This document shows positions 29,478-37,679 of a stretch of 64,000 nucleotides of DNA, in pieces. The DNA lies in contig NZ_RHJI01000011.1 in NCBI RefSeq assembly GCF_004211955.1, positions 62,001 to 126,000 on the forward strand, read 5' to 3'. Under the pieces are notes generated by a model, which saw only the letters and a list, made by a program, of their open reading frames with translations, was not told the DNA's origin and did not search any database. The stretch's first letter is position 1. Every line of letters starts with the position of its first letter. The position numbers and the translations under genes were made by a program. The stretch is from Escherichia sp. E1V33 (GTDB lineage: Bacteria; Pseudomonadota; Gammaproteobacteria; Enterobacterales; Enterobacteriaceae).

Positions 29478-29526
29478 GACGCTGTTTTTAACACAGTTGT
29501 AATAAGAGGTTAATCCCTTGAGTGAC

Positions 29527-31461
29527 ATGGCGAAAAACCTAATACTCTGGCTGGTCATTGCCGTTGTGCTGATGTCAGTATTCCAGAGCTTTGGGCCCAG
29601 CGAGTCTAATGGACGTAAGGTGGATTACTCTACCTTCCTACAAGAGGTCAATAACGACCAGGTTCGTGAAGCGCGTATCAACGGACGTGAAATCAACGTT
29701 ACCAAGAAAGATAGTAACCGTTATACCACTTACATTCCGGTTCAGGATCCGAAGTTACTGGATAACCTGCTGACCAAGAACGTCAAGGTTGTCGGTGAAC
29801 CGCCTGAAGAGCCAAGCCTGCTGGCTTCTATCTTCATCTCCTGGTTCCCGATGCTGTTGCTGATTGGTGTCTGGATCTTCTTCATGCGTCAAATGCAGGG
29901 CGGCGGTGGCAAAGGTGCCATGTCGTTCGGTAAGAGCAAAGCGCGCATGCTGACGGAAGATCAGATCAAAACGACCTTTGCTGACGTTGCGGGTTGCGAC
30001 GAAGCAAAAGAAGAAGTTGCCGAACTGGTTGAGTATCTGCGTGAGCCGAGCCGCTTCCAGAAACTCGGCGGTAAGATCCCGAAAGGCGTCCTGATGGTCG
30101 GTCCTCCGGGTACTGGTAAAACGCTGCTGGCGAAAGCGATTGCAGGCGAAGCGAAAGTTCCGTTCTTTACTATCTCCGGTTCTGACTTCGTAGAAATGTT
30201 CGTCGGTGTGGGTGCATCCCGTGTGCGTGACATGTTCGAACAGGCGAAGAAAGCGGCACCGTGTATCATCTTTATCGATGAAATTGACGCCGTAGGCCGC
30301 CAGCGTGGCGCTGGTCTGGGCGGTGGTCACGATGAACGTGAACAGACTCTGAACCAGATGCTGGTTGAGATGGATGGCTTCGAAGGTAACGAAGGTATCA
30401 TCGTTATCGCCGCGACTAACCGTCCGGACGTTCTCGACCCGGCCCTGCTGCGTCCTGGCCGTTTCGACCGTCAGGTTGTGGTCGGCTTGCCAGATGTTCG
30501 CGGTCGTGAGCAGATCCTGAAAGTTCACATGCGTCGCGTACCATTGGCACCCGATATCGACGCGGCAATCATTGCCCGTGGTACTCCTGGTTTCTCCGGT
30601 GCTGACCTGGCGAACCTGGTGAACGAAGCGGCACTGTTCGCTGCGCGTGGCAACAAACGCGTTGTGTCGATGGTTGAGTTCGAGAAAGCGAAAGACAAAA
30701 TCATGATGGGTGCGGAACGTCGCTCCATGGTGATGACGGAAGCGCAGAAAGAATCGACGGCTTACCACGAGGCGGGTCATGCGATTATCGGTCGCCTGGT
30801 GCCGGAACACGATCCGGTGCACAAAGTGACGATTATCCCACGCGGTCGTGCGCTGGGTGTGACTTTCTTCTTGCCTGAGGGCGACGCAATCAGCGCCAGC
30901 CGTCAGAAACTGGAAAGCCAGATTTCTACGCTGTACGGTGGTCGTCTGGCAGAAGAGATCATCTACGGGCCGGAACATGTTTCTACCGGTGCGTCCAACG
31001 ATATTAAAGTTGCGACCAACCTGGCACGTAACATGGTGACTCAGTGGGGCTTCTCTGAGAAATTGGGTCCACTGCTGTACGCGGAAGAAGAAGGTGAAGT
31101 GTTCCTCGGCCGTAGCGTAGCGAAAGCGAAGCATATGTCCGATGAAACTGCACGTATCATCGACCAGGAAGTGAAAGCACTGATTGAGCGTAACTATAAT
31201 CGTGCGCGTCAGCTTCTGACCGACAATATGGATATTCTGCATGCGATGAAAGATGCTCTCATGAAATATGAGACTATCGACGCACCGCAGATTGATGACC
31301 TGATGGCACGTCGCGATGTACGTCCGCCAGCGGGCTGGGAAGAACCAGGCGCTTCTAACAATTCTGGCGACAATGGTAGTCCAAAGGCTCCTCGTCCGGT
31401 TGATGAACCGCGTACGCCGAACCCGGGTAACACCATGTCAGAGCAGTTAGGCGACAAGTAA
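29527..31461 (+). CDS. ftsH: ATP-dependent zinc metalloprotease FtsH
   Basis: 644-residue membrane AAA+ protease that degrades sigma-32, LpxC, SecY and others. Two membrane helices (about 5-24 and 98-120) bracket a periplasmic domain. Walker A is GPPGTGKT, Walker [35 protein letters not shown], and the zinc site is HEAGH. I report the ATG giving [12 protein letters not shown] at 29518 (three codons earlier) has the better-spaced ribosome site, GAGG eight bases upstream. The ATG is 17 bases from it. FtsH controls LpxC, and so balances LPS against the pathways encoded elsewhere in this window. Confidence 0.97.
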
Positions 31462-31492
31462 GTTCCCGCATCAGATGACTGTATTTGTACCG

Positions 31493-31522
31493 AAAACCCC
31501 GGGGCGTGCTCCGGGGTTTTTT
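31493..31522 (+). terminator. Terminator after ftsH
   Basis: AAAACCCCGG / CCGGGGTTTTTT strong hairpin between ftsH and folP. Confidence 0.85.
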
Positions 31523-31550
31523 CTTATCAATTCATACCAGGGATAACATC

Positions 31551-32399
31551 ATGAAACTCTTTGCCCAGGGTACTTCACTGGACCTTAGCCATCCTCACGT
31601 AATGGGGATCCTCAACGTTACGCCTGATTCCTTTTCGGATGGTGGCACGCATAACTCGCTGATAGATGCGGTGAAACATGCGAATCTGATGATCAACGCT
31701 GGCGCGACGATCATTGACGTTGGTGGCGAGTCCACGCGGCCAGGGGCGGCGGAAGTTAGCGTTGAAGAAGAGTTGCAACGTGTTATTCCTGTGGTTGAGG
31801 CAATTGCTCAACGCTTCGAAGTCTGGATCTCGGTCGATACATCCAAACCAGAAGTCATCCGTGAGTCAGCAAAAGTTGGCGCTCACATTATTAACGATAT
31901 CCGCTCCCTTTCCGAACCTGGCGCTCTGGAGGCGGCTGCAGAAACCGGTTTACCGGTTTGTCTGATGCATATGCAGGGAAATCCAAAGACCATGCAGGAA
32001 GCGCCAAAGTATGACGATGTCTTTGCCGAGGTAAATCGCTACTTTGTTGAGCAAATAGCACGCTGCGAACAGGCTGGTATCGCAAAAGAGAAATTGTTGC
32101 TCGACCCCGGATTCGGTTTCGGTAAAAATCTCCATCACAACTATGCATTACTGGCGCGTCTGGCTGAATTTCATCATTTCAACCTGCCGCTGTTGGTGGG
32201 TATGTCACGAAAATCGATGATTGGACAGCTCTTGAACGTGGGGCCGTCAGAGCGTCTGAGCGGTAGTCTGGCCTGTGCGGTAATTGCCGCAATGCAAGGC
32301 GCGCACATTATTCGTGTTCATGACGTCAAAGAAACCGTAGAAGCGATGCGAGTGGTGGAAGCTACTCTGTCTGCAAAGGAAAACAAACGCTATGAGTAA
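31551..32399 (+). CDS. folP: Dihydropteroate synthase FolP
   Basis: 282-residue TIM-barrel enzyme condensing p-aminobenzoate with hydroxymethyl-dihydropterin diphosphate, the sulfonamide target. [14 protein letters not shown] and the loop GGESTRPGA are intact, as is [12 protein letters not shown]. The ATG at 31551 is the family start; 22 upstream in-frame codons cover the terminator. Its end overlaps glmM by eight bases. Confidence 0.97.
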
Positions 32400-33729
32400 T
32401 CGTAAATATTTCGGTACCGATGGGATTCGTGGTCGTGTTGGGGATGCGCCGATCACACCTGATTTTGTACTTAAGCTGGGTTGGGCCGCGGGTAAAGTGC
32501 TGGCGCGCCACGGCTCCCGTAAGATTATTATTGGTAAAGACACGCGTATTTCTGGCTATATGCTGGAGTCGGCGCTGGAAGCGGGTCTGGCGGCTGCCGG
32601 TCTTTCCGCGCTCTTCACTGGCCCGATGCCAACACCGGCCGTGGCTTATCTGACGCGTACCTTCCGCGCAGAAGCCGGCATTGTAATTTCTGCATCGCAT
32701 AACCCATTCTACGATAACGGGATCAAATTCTTTTCTATTGATGGCACCAAGCTGCCGGATGCAGTAGAAGAGGCCATCGAAGCGGAAATGGAAAAAGAGA
32801 TCAGCTGTGTTGATTCGGCAGAACTGGGTAAAGCCAGCCGTATCGTTGATGCTGCGGGTCGCTATATCGAATTTTGTAAAGCCACGTTCCCGAATGAACT
32901 TAGCCTGAGCGAATTGAAAATTGTGGTGGATTGCGCCAACGGCGCGACTTATCACATTGCGCCGAACGTGCTACGCGAGCTGGGAGCGAATGTTATCGCT
33001 ATCGGTTGTGAGCCGAACGGTGTAAACATCAACGCCGAAGTAGGAGCAACTGATGTTCGTGCATTACAGGCGCGCGTACTGGCTGAAAAAGCAGATCTCG
33101 GTATCGCCTTTGACGGTGACGGCGATCGCGTGATTATGGTGGACCATGAAGGCAATAAAGTCGATGGCGACCAGATTATGTATATCATCGCACGCGAAGG
33201 TCTGCGTCAGGGCCAGCTGCGTGGTGGCGCGGTGGGTACATTGATGAGCAACATGGGGCTGGAACTGGCGCTGAAACAGTTAGGCATTCCATTTGCGCGC
33301 GCGAAAGTGGGCGATCGCTACGTACTGGAAAAAATGCAGGAGAAAGGCTGGCGCATCGGTGCCGAGAACTCTGGCCACGTGATCCTGCTGGATAAAACCA
33401 CCACCGGTGATGGCATTGTTGCAGGTTTGCAGGTCCTGGCGGCGATGGCGCGTAACCATATGAGTCTGCACGACCTTTGCAGTGGCATGAAAATGTTCCC
33501 GCAGATTCTGGTTAACGTGCGTTACACCGCAGGTAGTGGCGATCCGCTTGAGCATGAGTCAGTTAAAGCTGTGACCGCAGAGGTTGAAGCGGCGCTGGGC
33601 AACCGTGGACGCGTATTACTGCGTAAATCTGGCACCGAGCCGTTAATTCGCGTGATGGTAGAAGGTGAAGACGAAGCGCAGGTAACCGAATTTGCGCACC
33701 GCATTGCTGACGCGGTAAAAGCGGTTTGA
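32392..33729 (+). CDS. glmM: Phosphoglucosamine mutase GlmM
   Basis: 445-residue enzyme converting glucosamine-6-P to glucosamine-1-P for UDP-GlcNAc. The phosphorylated Ser102 is in [11 protein letters not shown] (codon 102 counted from the DNA); the metal loop is FDGDGDRV, the sugar loop GAENSGHV, and the phosphate loop [10 protein letters not shown]. Coupled to folP by overlap. Its product feeds MurA, also in this window. Confidence 0.98.
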
Positions 33730-34303: not shown

Positions 34304-34390
34304 GCCGAGGTGGTGGAATTGGTAGACACGCTACCTTGAGGTGGTAGTGCCCAATAGGGCTTACGGGTTCAAGTCCCGTCCTCGGTACCA
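34304..34390 (+). tRNA. leuU: tRNA-Leu (GAG)
   Basis: 87-base class II tRNA: acceptor GCCGAGG / CCTCGGT with encoded CCA, D-arm AATTGGTAGAC, anticodon loop TTGAGGT (GAG, reads CUC/CUU), long variable arm and T-loop GGTTCAAGTCC. Confidence 0.98.
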
Positions 34391-34401
34391 AATTCCAGAA
34401 A

Positions 34402-34428
34402 AGAGACGCTGAAAAGCGTCTTTTTTTG
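34402..34428 (+). terminator. Terminator of secG-leuU
   Basis: AGACGCT GAAA AGCGTCT stem with a run of seven or more T. Confidence 0.88.
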
Positions 34429-34465
34429 TTTTATATATCCGCATTTTATCTGCTGGACAATGTGC

Positions 34466-34487
34466 CTCCTCAACTCCTCAACTCCTC
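34466..34487. repeat. Short tandem octamer repeat
   Basis: Two perfect copies of CTCCTCAA and a third cut to CTCCTC, in the gap between leuU and yhbX; related CTCC/CCTCC words recur to 34520. Function unknown. Confidence 0.7.
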
Positions 34488-34584
34488 GCTCTTTGCCTCC
34501 TGACTCCGCATAAACTCCTCTGAATAAGATTTGAATCACTTTTGTTTTTTAGAGCATATAAGCTAAGTGTAAACATTTTTTCAA

Positions 34585-34600
34585 AATGATATAGATCAGG
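34585..34600 (+). promoter_or_regulatory. Possible CRP-like site before yhbX
   Basis: AATGATATAGATCAGG matches 11 of 16 positions of the CRP consensus and keeps the inner TGATnTAGATCA core. The outer bases are poor. The site is about 70 bases before the gene. Confidence 0.3.
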
Positions 34601-34670
34601 ACTTCAGTTTTTCTAATGTATAAAATCGCACGCCGTCGATATTTACTCTTTTTTTATCTACGGGTTTGGG

Positions 34671-36266
34671 ATGGCTGCACATAACATATTTCGAAAAATT
34701 GAAAATAACTGGCTTATAATTTTTTGTGTAATTATTTTTGCTCTGATTAATATCGTTGCTTCTTCAGGAGCACATCTGGTTCATCGGACGCTTTTCTTTG
34801 TGCTTTTTATCCTTGTTATAAAACGCATAGCTTCTTTCCCTATGCGCTTATTATCTAGTGTCCCATTTATGCTGCTGGCTGCGGCGGATCTCTGTATCAG
34901 CCTCTACGCATGGTGTACCTTTGGCACAAGTTTCAATGATGGCTTTGCAATAAGCGTATTGCAAAGTGATCCTGATGAGATAACAAAGATGCTGAGGCTA
35001 TATGTTGTTTATTGCATTATTTTCATTGCCCTGTTCACACTCTTTTTATCCTCGATAATAAAATATGATGTTTCGCTACCGGGTAAAAAAATTACACTAA
35101 CGTTGTTGCTGATTCTGATTGCGATAAGTTTATTTTCTTCTGTCAAATTTGCCCTTAAAGATAAAAAAGCAAAGAAAACGGCAGATCCTTATATTGTGGC
35201 ATCCCGATTTGCAACATATACACCCTTTTTCAACTTAAATTATTTCGCTTTAGCCGCAAAGGAATACCACAGGCTGATGGCCATTGCTGACAAAGTGCCT
35301 GGCTATCAATTAGAACTAAACGATAATGGCATCGATGACTATGTATTAATTGTGGGGGAGTCAGTAAGGGCCGCGAATATGTCCATCTATGGGCATAACA
35401 GATCGACAACGCCACAGCTCGAAAAACAGAAGGCTCGTATTAAGCTTTTTACTCAGGCGATAAGTGGAGCGCCTTATACTGCGTTAGCCGTTCCCCTTAC
35501 TTTAACTGCGGATACTGTATCTGATCACGATATCCAGCATTACCCTGACAACATCATTAATATGGCGAATCAGGCAGGGGTTGACACATACTGGCTTAGT
35601 GCGCAATCTGCATTCAGACAGAACGGGACTGCTGTTGCCAGCATTGCAATGCGAGCGAAAGAAAGAGTCTATGTCAAAGGATATGACGAATTGTTGCTTC
35701 CGCATCTGGCTGAGGTATTAAATAAAAAATCGCCAAATAAGAAACTGATTGTTCTCCATCTGGTTGGCAGTCATGAACCTGTTTGCGCCACATATCCAAA
35801 AGCAAAAGCTGTGTATTATCCATTGGATAACCAGGATGCCTGTTATGACAACTCAATTCATTATACCGATAGTATTATAGGGCAGGTCTTTGCGCTGCTT
35901 AAAGATAAGCGAGCCTCGGTTATGTATTTTGCTGACCATGGGCTTGAACGTGATCCCATGGCAAAACATAGTTATTTCCACGGAGGGAAGAAACCTAGTC
36001 AGGAGGCTTATCATGTACCGATGTTTATCTGGTACAGCCCAATGCTCGGTGAGAATGTTGATCGTTCGACAGTAACGGATATTTTTTCCACTGCTTATAA
36101 CGACTATCTTATCAATGCGTGGATGGGCGTTACCCGACCAGAGCAACCTAAAACACTTAAAGACGTGATCTCTCACTATCAGGGGGATTCGCGGGTTGTT
36201 GACGGAAGCCATGAAATGTTTGATTACCGGGAACTAAGACGAAATTTTAATGCGGACAAGCAGTAA
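34671..36266 (+). CDS. yhbX: YhbX-like phosphoethanolamine transferase-family membrane protein
   Basis: 531-residue inner-membrane protein of the alkaline phosphatase superfamily, EptA/OpgE-like. Several hydrophobic helices in the first 150 residues precede a periplasmic hydrolase domain. Candidate metal-site segments are YVLIVGESVRAANMSIYG, the nucleophile region SGAPYTALAVPL, VMYFADHGLERDP and YFHGGKKPS. It occupies the K-12 yhbX position but, compared with the K-12 protein as I remember it, differs at many positions and in its C terminus. The DNA is markedly more AT-rich than neighbours. No confirmed substrate; modification of lipid A or glycan is inferred from family. Confidence 0.88.
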   Translation: MAAHNIFRKIENNWLIIFCVIIFALINIVASSGAHLVHRTLFFVLFILVIKRIASFPMRLLSSVPFMLLAAADLCISLYAWCTFGTSFNDGFAISVLQSDPDEITKMLRLYVVYCIIFIALFTLFLSSIIKYDVSLPGKKITLTLLLILIAISLFSSVKFALKDKKAKKTADPYIVASRFATYTPFFNLNYFALAAKEYHRLMAIADKVPGYQLELNDNGIDDYVLIVGESVRAANMSIYGHNRSTTPQLEKQKARIKLFTQAISGAPYTALAVPLTLTADTVSDHDIQHYPDNIINMANQAGVDTYWLSAQSAFRQNGTAVASIAMRAKERVYVKGYDELLLPHLAEVLNKKSPNKKLIVLHLVGSHEPVCATYPKAKAVYYPLDNQDACYDNSIHYTDSIIGQVFALLKDKRASVMYFADHGLERDPMAKHSYFHGGKKPSQEAYHVPMFIWYSPMLGENVDRSTVTDIFSTAYNDYLINAWMGVTRPEQPKTLKDVISHYQGDSRVVDGSHEMFDYRELRRNFNADKQ

Positions 36267-36273
36267 CTGAATG

Positions 36274-36294
36274 ACCCTGCCCATAAAGGGCAGG
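36274..36294. terminator. Hairpin between yhbX and argG
   Basis: CCCTGCCC / GGGCAGGG stem between convergent genes; A rather than T follows on the plus strand, so its efficiency as a terminator is doubtful. Confidence 0.5.
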
Positions 36295-36308
36295 GAAAAA
36301 TTGAGGTT

Positions 36309-37679
<1,371 letters not shown>

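Follow-up and report, generated by a model that had tools for sequence, protein, structure and literature searches.

Two highly diverged yhbX alleles alternate between leuU and argG in a close group of Escherichia strains

Results

Two alternative alleles of yhbX occupy the same position between the tRNA gene leuU and argG in Escherichia, and both are found within one close strain group, both bear the mark of purifying selection and both retain their catalytic residues. We call the K-12 form of the gene A, and B the form found in the window, i.e., the 64,000-nucleotide stretch of contig NZ_RHJI01000011.1 from Escherichia sp. E1V33 that was analysed here. The genome of the window (G000, an Escherichia draft of 4.76 Mb in 62 contigs) very probably carries B as a long-separated cassette, whole cassettes having been replaced at the leuU–argG site. 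Where xenologous genes replace each other in variable slots of a chromosome, alternative cassettes lie between conserved flanks; in contrast to the general case, two of the alternatives here are highly diverged versions of one gene, and we regard A and B as a neat but unexceptional pair of xenologous alleles. The slot also shows that yhbX, a core-looking gene in K-12, is variable content.

Allele B encodes a predicted phosphoethanolamine transferase

The left border of the variable slot is formed by leuU, encoding tRNA-Leu (GAG) (34304..34390, plus strand; ARAGORN), whose sequence is the same in all nine examined rows with allele A or B. The last stretch common to all slot states comprises leuU and the 36–46 bases 3' of it (86–100% identical), within which lies a terminator-like stem (34398..34427, plus strand). 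Conservation argues for this candidate leuU terminator, as the count of terminator-like sites does not exceed that of shuffled sequences (2 versus 2.1); promoter-like sites also show no excess (3 versus a shuffle mean of 5.4). An AT-rich leader without BLAST match to the K-12 leader follows (34428..34670, plus strand), and the distance from leuU to the start codon is 280 bases in the window versus 458 in K-12. Allele B itself (34671..36266, plus strand), identified from its open reading frame, by Pfam and by its identity to K-12 YhbX, encodes a 531-residue YhbX-type protein composed of a membrane domain and a sulfatase-type catalytic domain. It is the sole annotated gene of the interval in a B carrier, and the window has no other gene-sized plus-strand open reading frame between leuU and argG. 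A perfect 8-base inverted repeat read from the sequence (36275..36295, unstranded) separates the convergent yhbX and argG (36309..37652, minus strand; from the list of open reading frames); it was not scored as a terminator, and a similar repeat accompanies allele A. Compared with A, B has its right border within the final 8 bases of argG (36309..36316, minus strand), which differ from K-12 in B carriers, with ArgG ending in AK in B carriers and in GQ in A carriers. These positions agree with the stretch 34391–36308 that the initial annotation had given as lying between leuU and argG. By eye, the two C-terminal residues of ArgG differ with slot content also beyond A and B: GQ recurs in G010 and G006, VK is found in SC423 and G009, and other endings occur in G001 and G011.

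The protein matches Pfam PF00884 (sulfatase) with 182.7 bits, and by sequence, EptC and EptA are the closest proteins with a solved structure. Residues E230, T270, D422 and H423 align with E240, T280, D452 and H453 of EptA (5FGN), and we presume that they serve the corresponding catalytic roles (zinc ligands and threonine nucleophile). Ten conserved positions, including E230, T270, H368, D422, H423 and H437, are invariant in all 11 sequences checked, indicating that the catalytic residues of B are intact. A PF00884 domain with aligned E/T/D/H residues places the protein in the sulfatase-type phosphoethanolamine transferase superfamily (EptA/EptC/MCR), and it belongs to the YhbX family by its location between leuU and argG and by its 69% identity to K-12 YhbX, versus 26–34% to four other homologues in its own genome. 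Given the low identity of these four, allele B is the only YhbX-type copy found in that genome. However, no NCBIfam model reaches its curated cut-off with this protein: the best, PRK10649 (CptA), has a cut-off of 404 and scores 145.9 bits, and the MCR models, with cut-offs of 1075 or higher, score 37.6–68 bits. Thus, whereas B shares the catalytic domain with EptC/CptA, EptA and MCR, membership of any of these families proper was rejected. Structure prediction of the window protein from seven sequences gave a mean pLDDT of 47, too low for structural reading. From its family, the product of B is predicted to be a periplasm-facing phosphoethanolamine transferase, which would transfer phosphoethanolamine from phosphatidylethanolamine to a periplasmic acceptor.

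The initial annotation had described the DNA between leuU and argG as AT-rich. Indeed, the interval has a GC content of 0.408, and the B coding sequence has a GC of 0.415 and a GC3 of 0.394, versus 0.486–0.538 and 0.48–0.59, respectively, for 11 surrounding core genes of the same genome. Yet K-12 yhbX is AT-rich as well (GC 0.431, GC3 0.421), and the AT-richness is thus a property of the slot content rather than of B alone. The divergence from K-12, estimated earlier by eye at roughly a third of protein positions, amounts to 69% protein identity and 71% DNA identity, whereas the 11 surrounding core genes range in DNA identity from 90.2% (dacB) to 99.1% (ftsH and rimP), with glmM at 92.2%, secG at 97.9% and argG at 93.3%. 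The accompanying statement that the flanks differ at only a few positions holds for amino acids (ArgG is 97% identical) but not for DNA, which differs by 1–10%. Compared with B, K-12 YhbX has the same slot, orientation and ten conserved positions, but it has nine more C-terminal residues, its own leader, different C-terminal codons in ArgG and saturated synonymous divergence.

A and B are swapped within one close strain group

Over folP–leuU, 11 E. coli records reach at least 99% identity to the B carrier E200086. Seven of the 11 carry B, and the remaining four (NZ_AP027764.1, R32_14_1F, 2013C-4282 and 2020CK-00188) carry at the same place an A allele of 1626 bases. This alternation of A and B in strains with at least 99% identical folP–leuU is an allele swap. 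In a comparison of G004 (A) with E200086 (B), identity in the flanks reaches 99.0% or more in 24 of 28 500-base steps, is lowest at 98.4%, and amounts to 99.6% in the 500 bases of argG adjoining the slot, whereas the yhbX genes of G004 and the B carrier G005 are 71.0% identical. The argG of R32_14_1F (A) is 99.3% identical to that of E200086, but those of 2013C-4282 and 2020CK-00188 (both A) are just 96.6–97.0% identical, so near-identity on both sides of the slot does not extend to all members; G005 is likewise 96–97% identical to E200086 near the 3' end of argG. The edges of the swap showed no DNA resembling a B donor. In secG, E200086 is the same as K-12 at three sites where G004 and G005 share another state.

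The four A alleles of the swap group are 97.5–99.0% identical to nine E. coli A alleles, among which the lowest pair is 97.2%, although an unrooted argG tree separates the four A strains together with E200086 from E. coli (support 99/98). As the A alleles thus lie within the E. coli spread, the data fit an exchange of A between the swap group and E. coli after their split, in a direction that we can only infer. Whole cassettes would have been exchanged in the interval that runs from the leuU terminator to the end of argG; homologous recombination via the conserved flanks, glmM-secG-leuU on one side and argG on the other, would be the simplest mechanism.

The alleles appear to have separated long ago

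Between A and B, dN is 0.21 and pS is 0.72–0.78, a value at or close to saturation, whereas dS between the window and K-12 is 0.04–0.51 in seven flanking genes. Selection on the protein would not yield saturated synonymous sites, which argues that A and B split well before the sampled lineages did. The B lineage would have parted from A long ago, before the genus arose, and at least one of the alleles may have come from outside the sampled genus, given a wider YhbX pool with island and plasmid copies. With A and B alternating in similar flanks and synonymous sites saturated, the early suggestion of allelic replacement, or of a lineage variant beside a tRNA gene, is borne out. The contrary case named by the initial annotation, an allele that tracks the species tree with the divergence of its flanking genes, does not describe A versus B, but the divergence within the B set is flank-like. 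There, the B alleles of G003, G005 and E200086 are 93–95% identical to that of the window, and dS is 0.13–0.24, similar to the 0.09–0.52 of flanking genes from the same pairs (seven genes, four of those pairs). B may therefore have been inherited vertically for some time and be long resident in the lineage of the window, and A could be the replacer of B in E. coli. As a separate observation, the flanks are mosaic at about 29500–33700 of the window, with ftsH near K-12 (dS 0.04) and glmM far from it (dS 0.41).

Outside A and B, the closest relatives are a Leminorella gene (65%) and a third type of YhbX homologue, type C (65–67% identical to B). Copies of type C are not at leuU–argG: in G010 the gene adjoins a tyrosine integrase, and others come from an E. 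coli plasmid and a metagenome-assembled genome. B groups with C in two trees (support 92/93 and 85/85, neither decisive), yet by raw identity B is nearer to A than to C. A clade of A and C is rejected (p-AU 0.014), whereas one of A and B is not (p-AU 0.147), which is why we make no claim that A and B arrived independently. A search of a phage collection returned one distant match only (23.7%). In the literature, genomic island lists name yhbX together with intAS (PMC12054123), and tRNA-linked insertions in one study are stated to have contained YjgX or YhbX (PMC6174562); these records agree with a mobile YhbX pool.

Among 5426 E. coli genomes, seven carry B (match over at least 80% of the query at 94% identity), and these are the seven B carriers of the swap group. 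A looser search with the gene found a relative in 5155 of the 5426, and the match covered 80% or more of the gene in 5093; at the best place, identity was 90–95% in seven and 60–80% in 5148, copies outside the slot possibly being counted. In a genus sample of 12 genomes, three carry B (G000, G003 and G005), two carry A (G002 and G004) and the other seven have no intact yhbX at the slot; G010 and G011, the nearest relatives of the window genome, have empty slots, and the more distant G003 has B. A family-level sample searched at E 1e-60 gave matches in 35 of 392 genomes and 18 of 154 genera, counts that include the window's own.

These data also bear on an unlikely alternative, in which A and B are an ancient trans-species polymorphism, both present in the Escherichia ancestor and maintained by balancing selection, neither having been imported. 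It would account for the interval and the similar inverted repeats before argG that A and B share, for an A-type 3' remnant beside argG in the more distant G007 and G008, and for the clade of A and B that is not rejected. However, the saturation demands an age far beyond the divergence of the flanks, B tends to group with type C, and the matches are confined to just 18 genera of the family sample.

Both alleles appear constrained. Within A, dN/dS is 0.075–0.092; within B, five of six pairs have 0.18–0.22, and the remaining pair, whose members are very close (dS 0.014), has 0.40; and between B and A it is 0.04–0.09 in the five pairs with finite dS, a rough estimate near saturation. These ratios indicate purifying selection on both A and B, and the higher values within B make a somewhat weaker constraint on B possible. 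Divergence along the protein is greatest in the membrane domain (63% identity between A and B) and least in the catalytic core (74%). The higher dN/dS within B and the divergent membrane domain would speak for accelerated divergence of a single yhbX in situ under relaxed or diversifying selection, a cause that the initial annotation had also proposed. We consider this highly improbable and abandon it: the synonymous sites are saturated too, which protein selection would not cause, dN/dS is low, and B is common to G003, G005 and E200086. Misassembly or contamination of the window contig, conceivable for a draft of 62 contigs, has a negligible probability, as B lies at the same place in the complete chromosome NZ_CP098223.1 and in two other genus genomes.

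Possible functional meaning of the two alleles

No function had been established for YhbX according to a 2014 paper (PMC4013655). One screen counts the yhbX knock-out among six that show more bypass transcription at the pspA promoter (PMC4551910), and the table of another study includes a predicted GalR site at yhbX (PMC5110547); no acceptor is named in either. The literature on yhbX and on leuU integration, as far as it was covered, contains nothing on two yhbX alleles in the slot. Two alleles that are a third different within one close strain group offer a natural experiment for the acceptor of YhbX. It is conceivable, but in our estimate quite unlikely, that A and B are functionally different envelope phosphoethanolamine transferases, distinct in acceptor or regulation, that are swapped like O-antigen types, with specificity residing in the membrane domain.

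The leuU–argG slot takes several states

Between leuU and argG, the slot contains A, B, a region with a helix-turn-helix (HTH) gene, disruptions by IS elements or prophage, or short empty forms. When mapped onto a tree built from eleven core genes of the region (12,954 columns), five slot states in 17 rows require at least eight changes, and B versus not-B requires four; the states were assigned by hand, "empty" lumps unlike sequences, and the core tree is a local one in a mosaic region. The slot of SC423 holds an HTH-annotated gene, and that of G006 a homologous region that is 89% identical. The SC423 protein (L033:2066-3019) has 317 residues and an HTH match below the Pfam cut-off. Among 5426 E. 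coli genomes, 233 have the SC423 gene, whose position was read in SC423 only. In G001, G009, G010 and G011, the slot comprises only 190–362 bases. In G007 and G008, leuU and argG are more than 1 Mb apart, and a large rearrangement thus has a breakpoint in the slot; their A-type 3' remnant beside argG is about 105 bases long and 78% identical to K-12. Disruptions in single E. coli strains comprise an IS1 in yhbX, an ISVsa5-family transposase listed under the yhbX match, and a truncated yhbX adjoining prophage-like genes (Mor activator annotation).

A tRNA-targeting integrative element was considered and rejected, as no integrase was seen in the interval and no flanking repeats were present; a repeat of at least 14 bases of the leuU 3' end was not found before argG. 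The leuU genes of G006, G007, G008 and G011 (L084, L085, L087 and L091) share a form with nine substitutions relative to the canonical sequence, some of which, by eye, compensate each other in stems. Since G011 has this variant despite grouping in the core tree with G010 and G000, which have the canonical leuU, leuU itself may have been exchanged.
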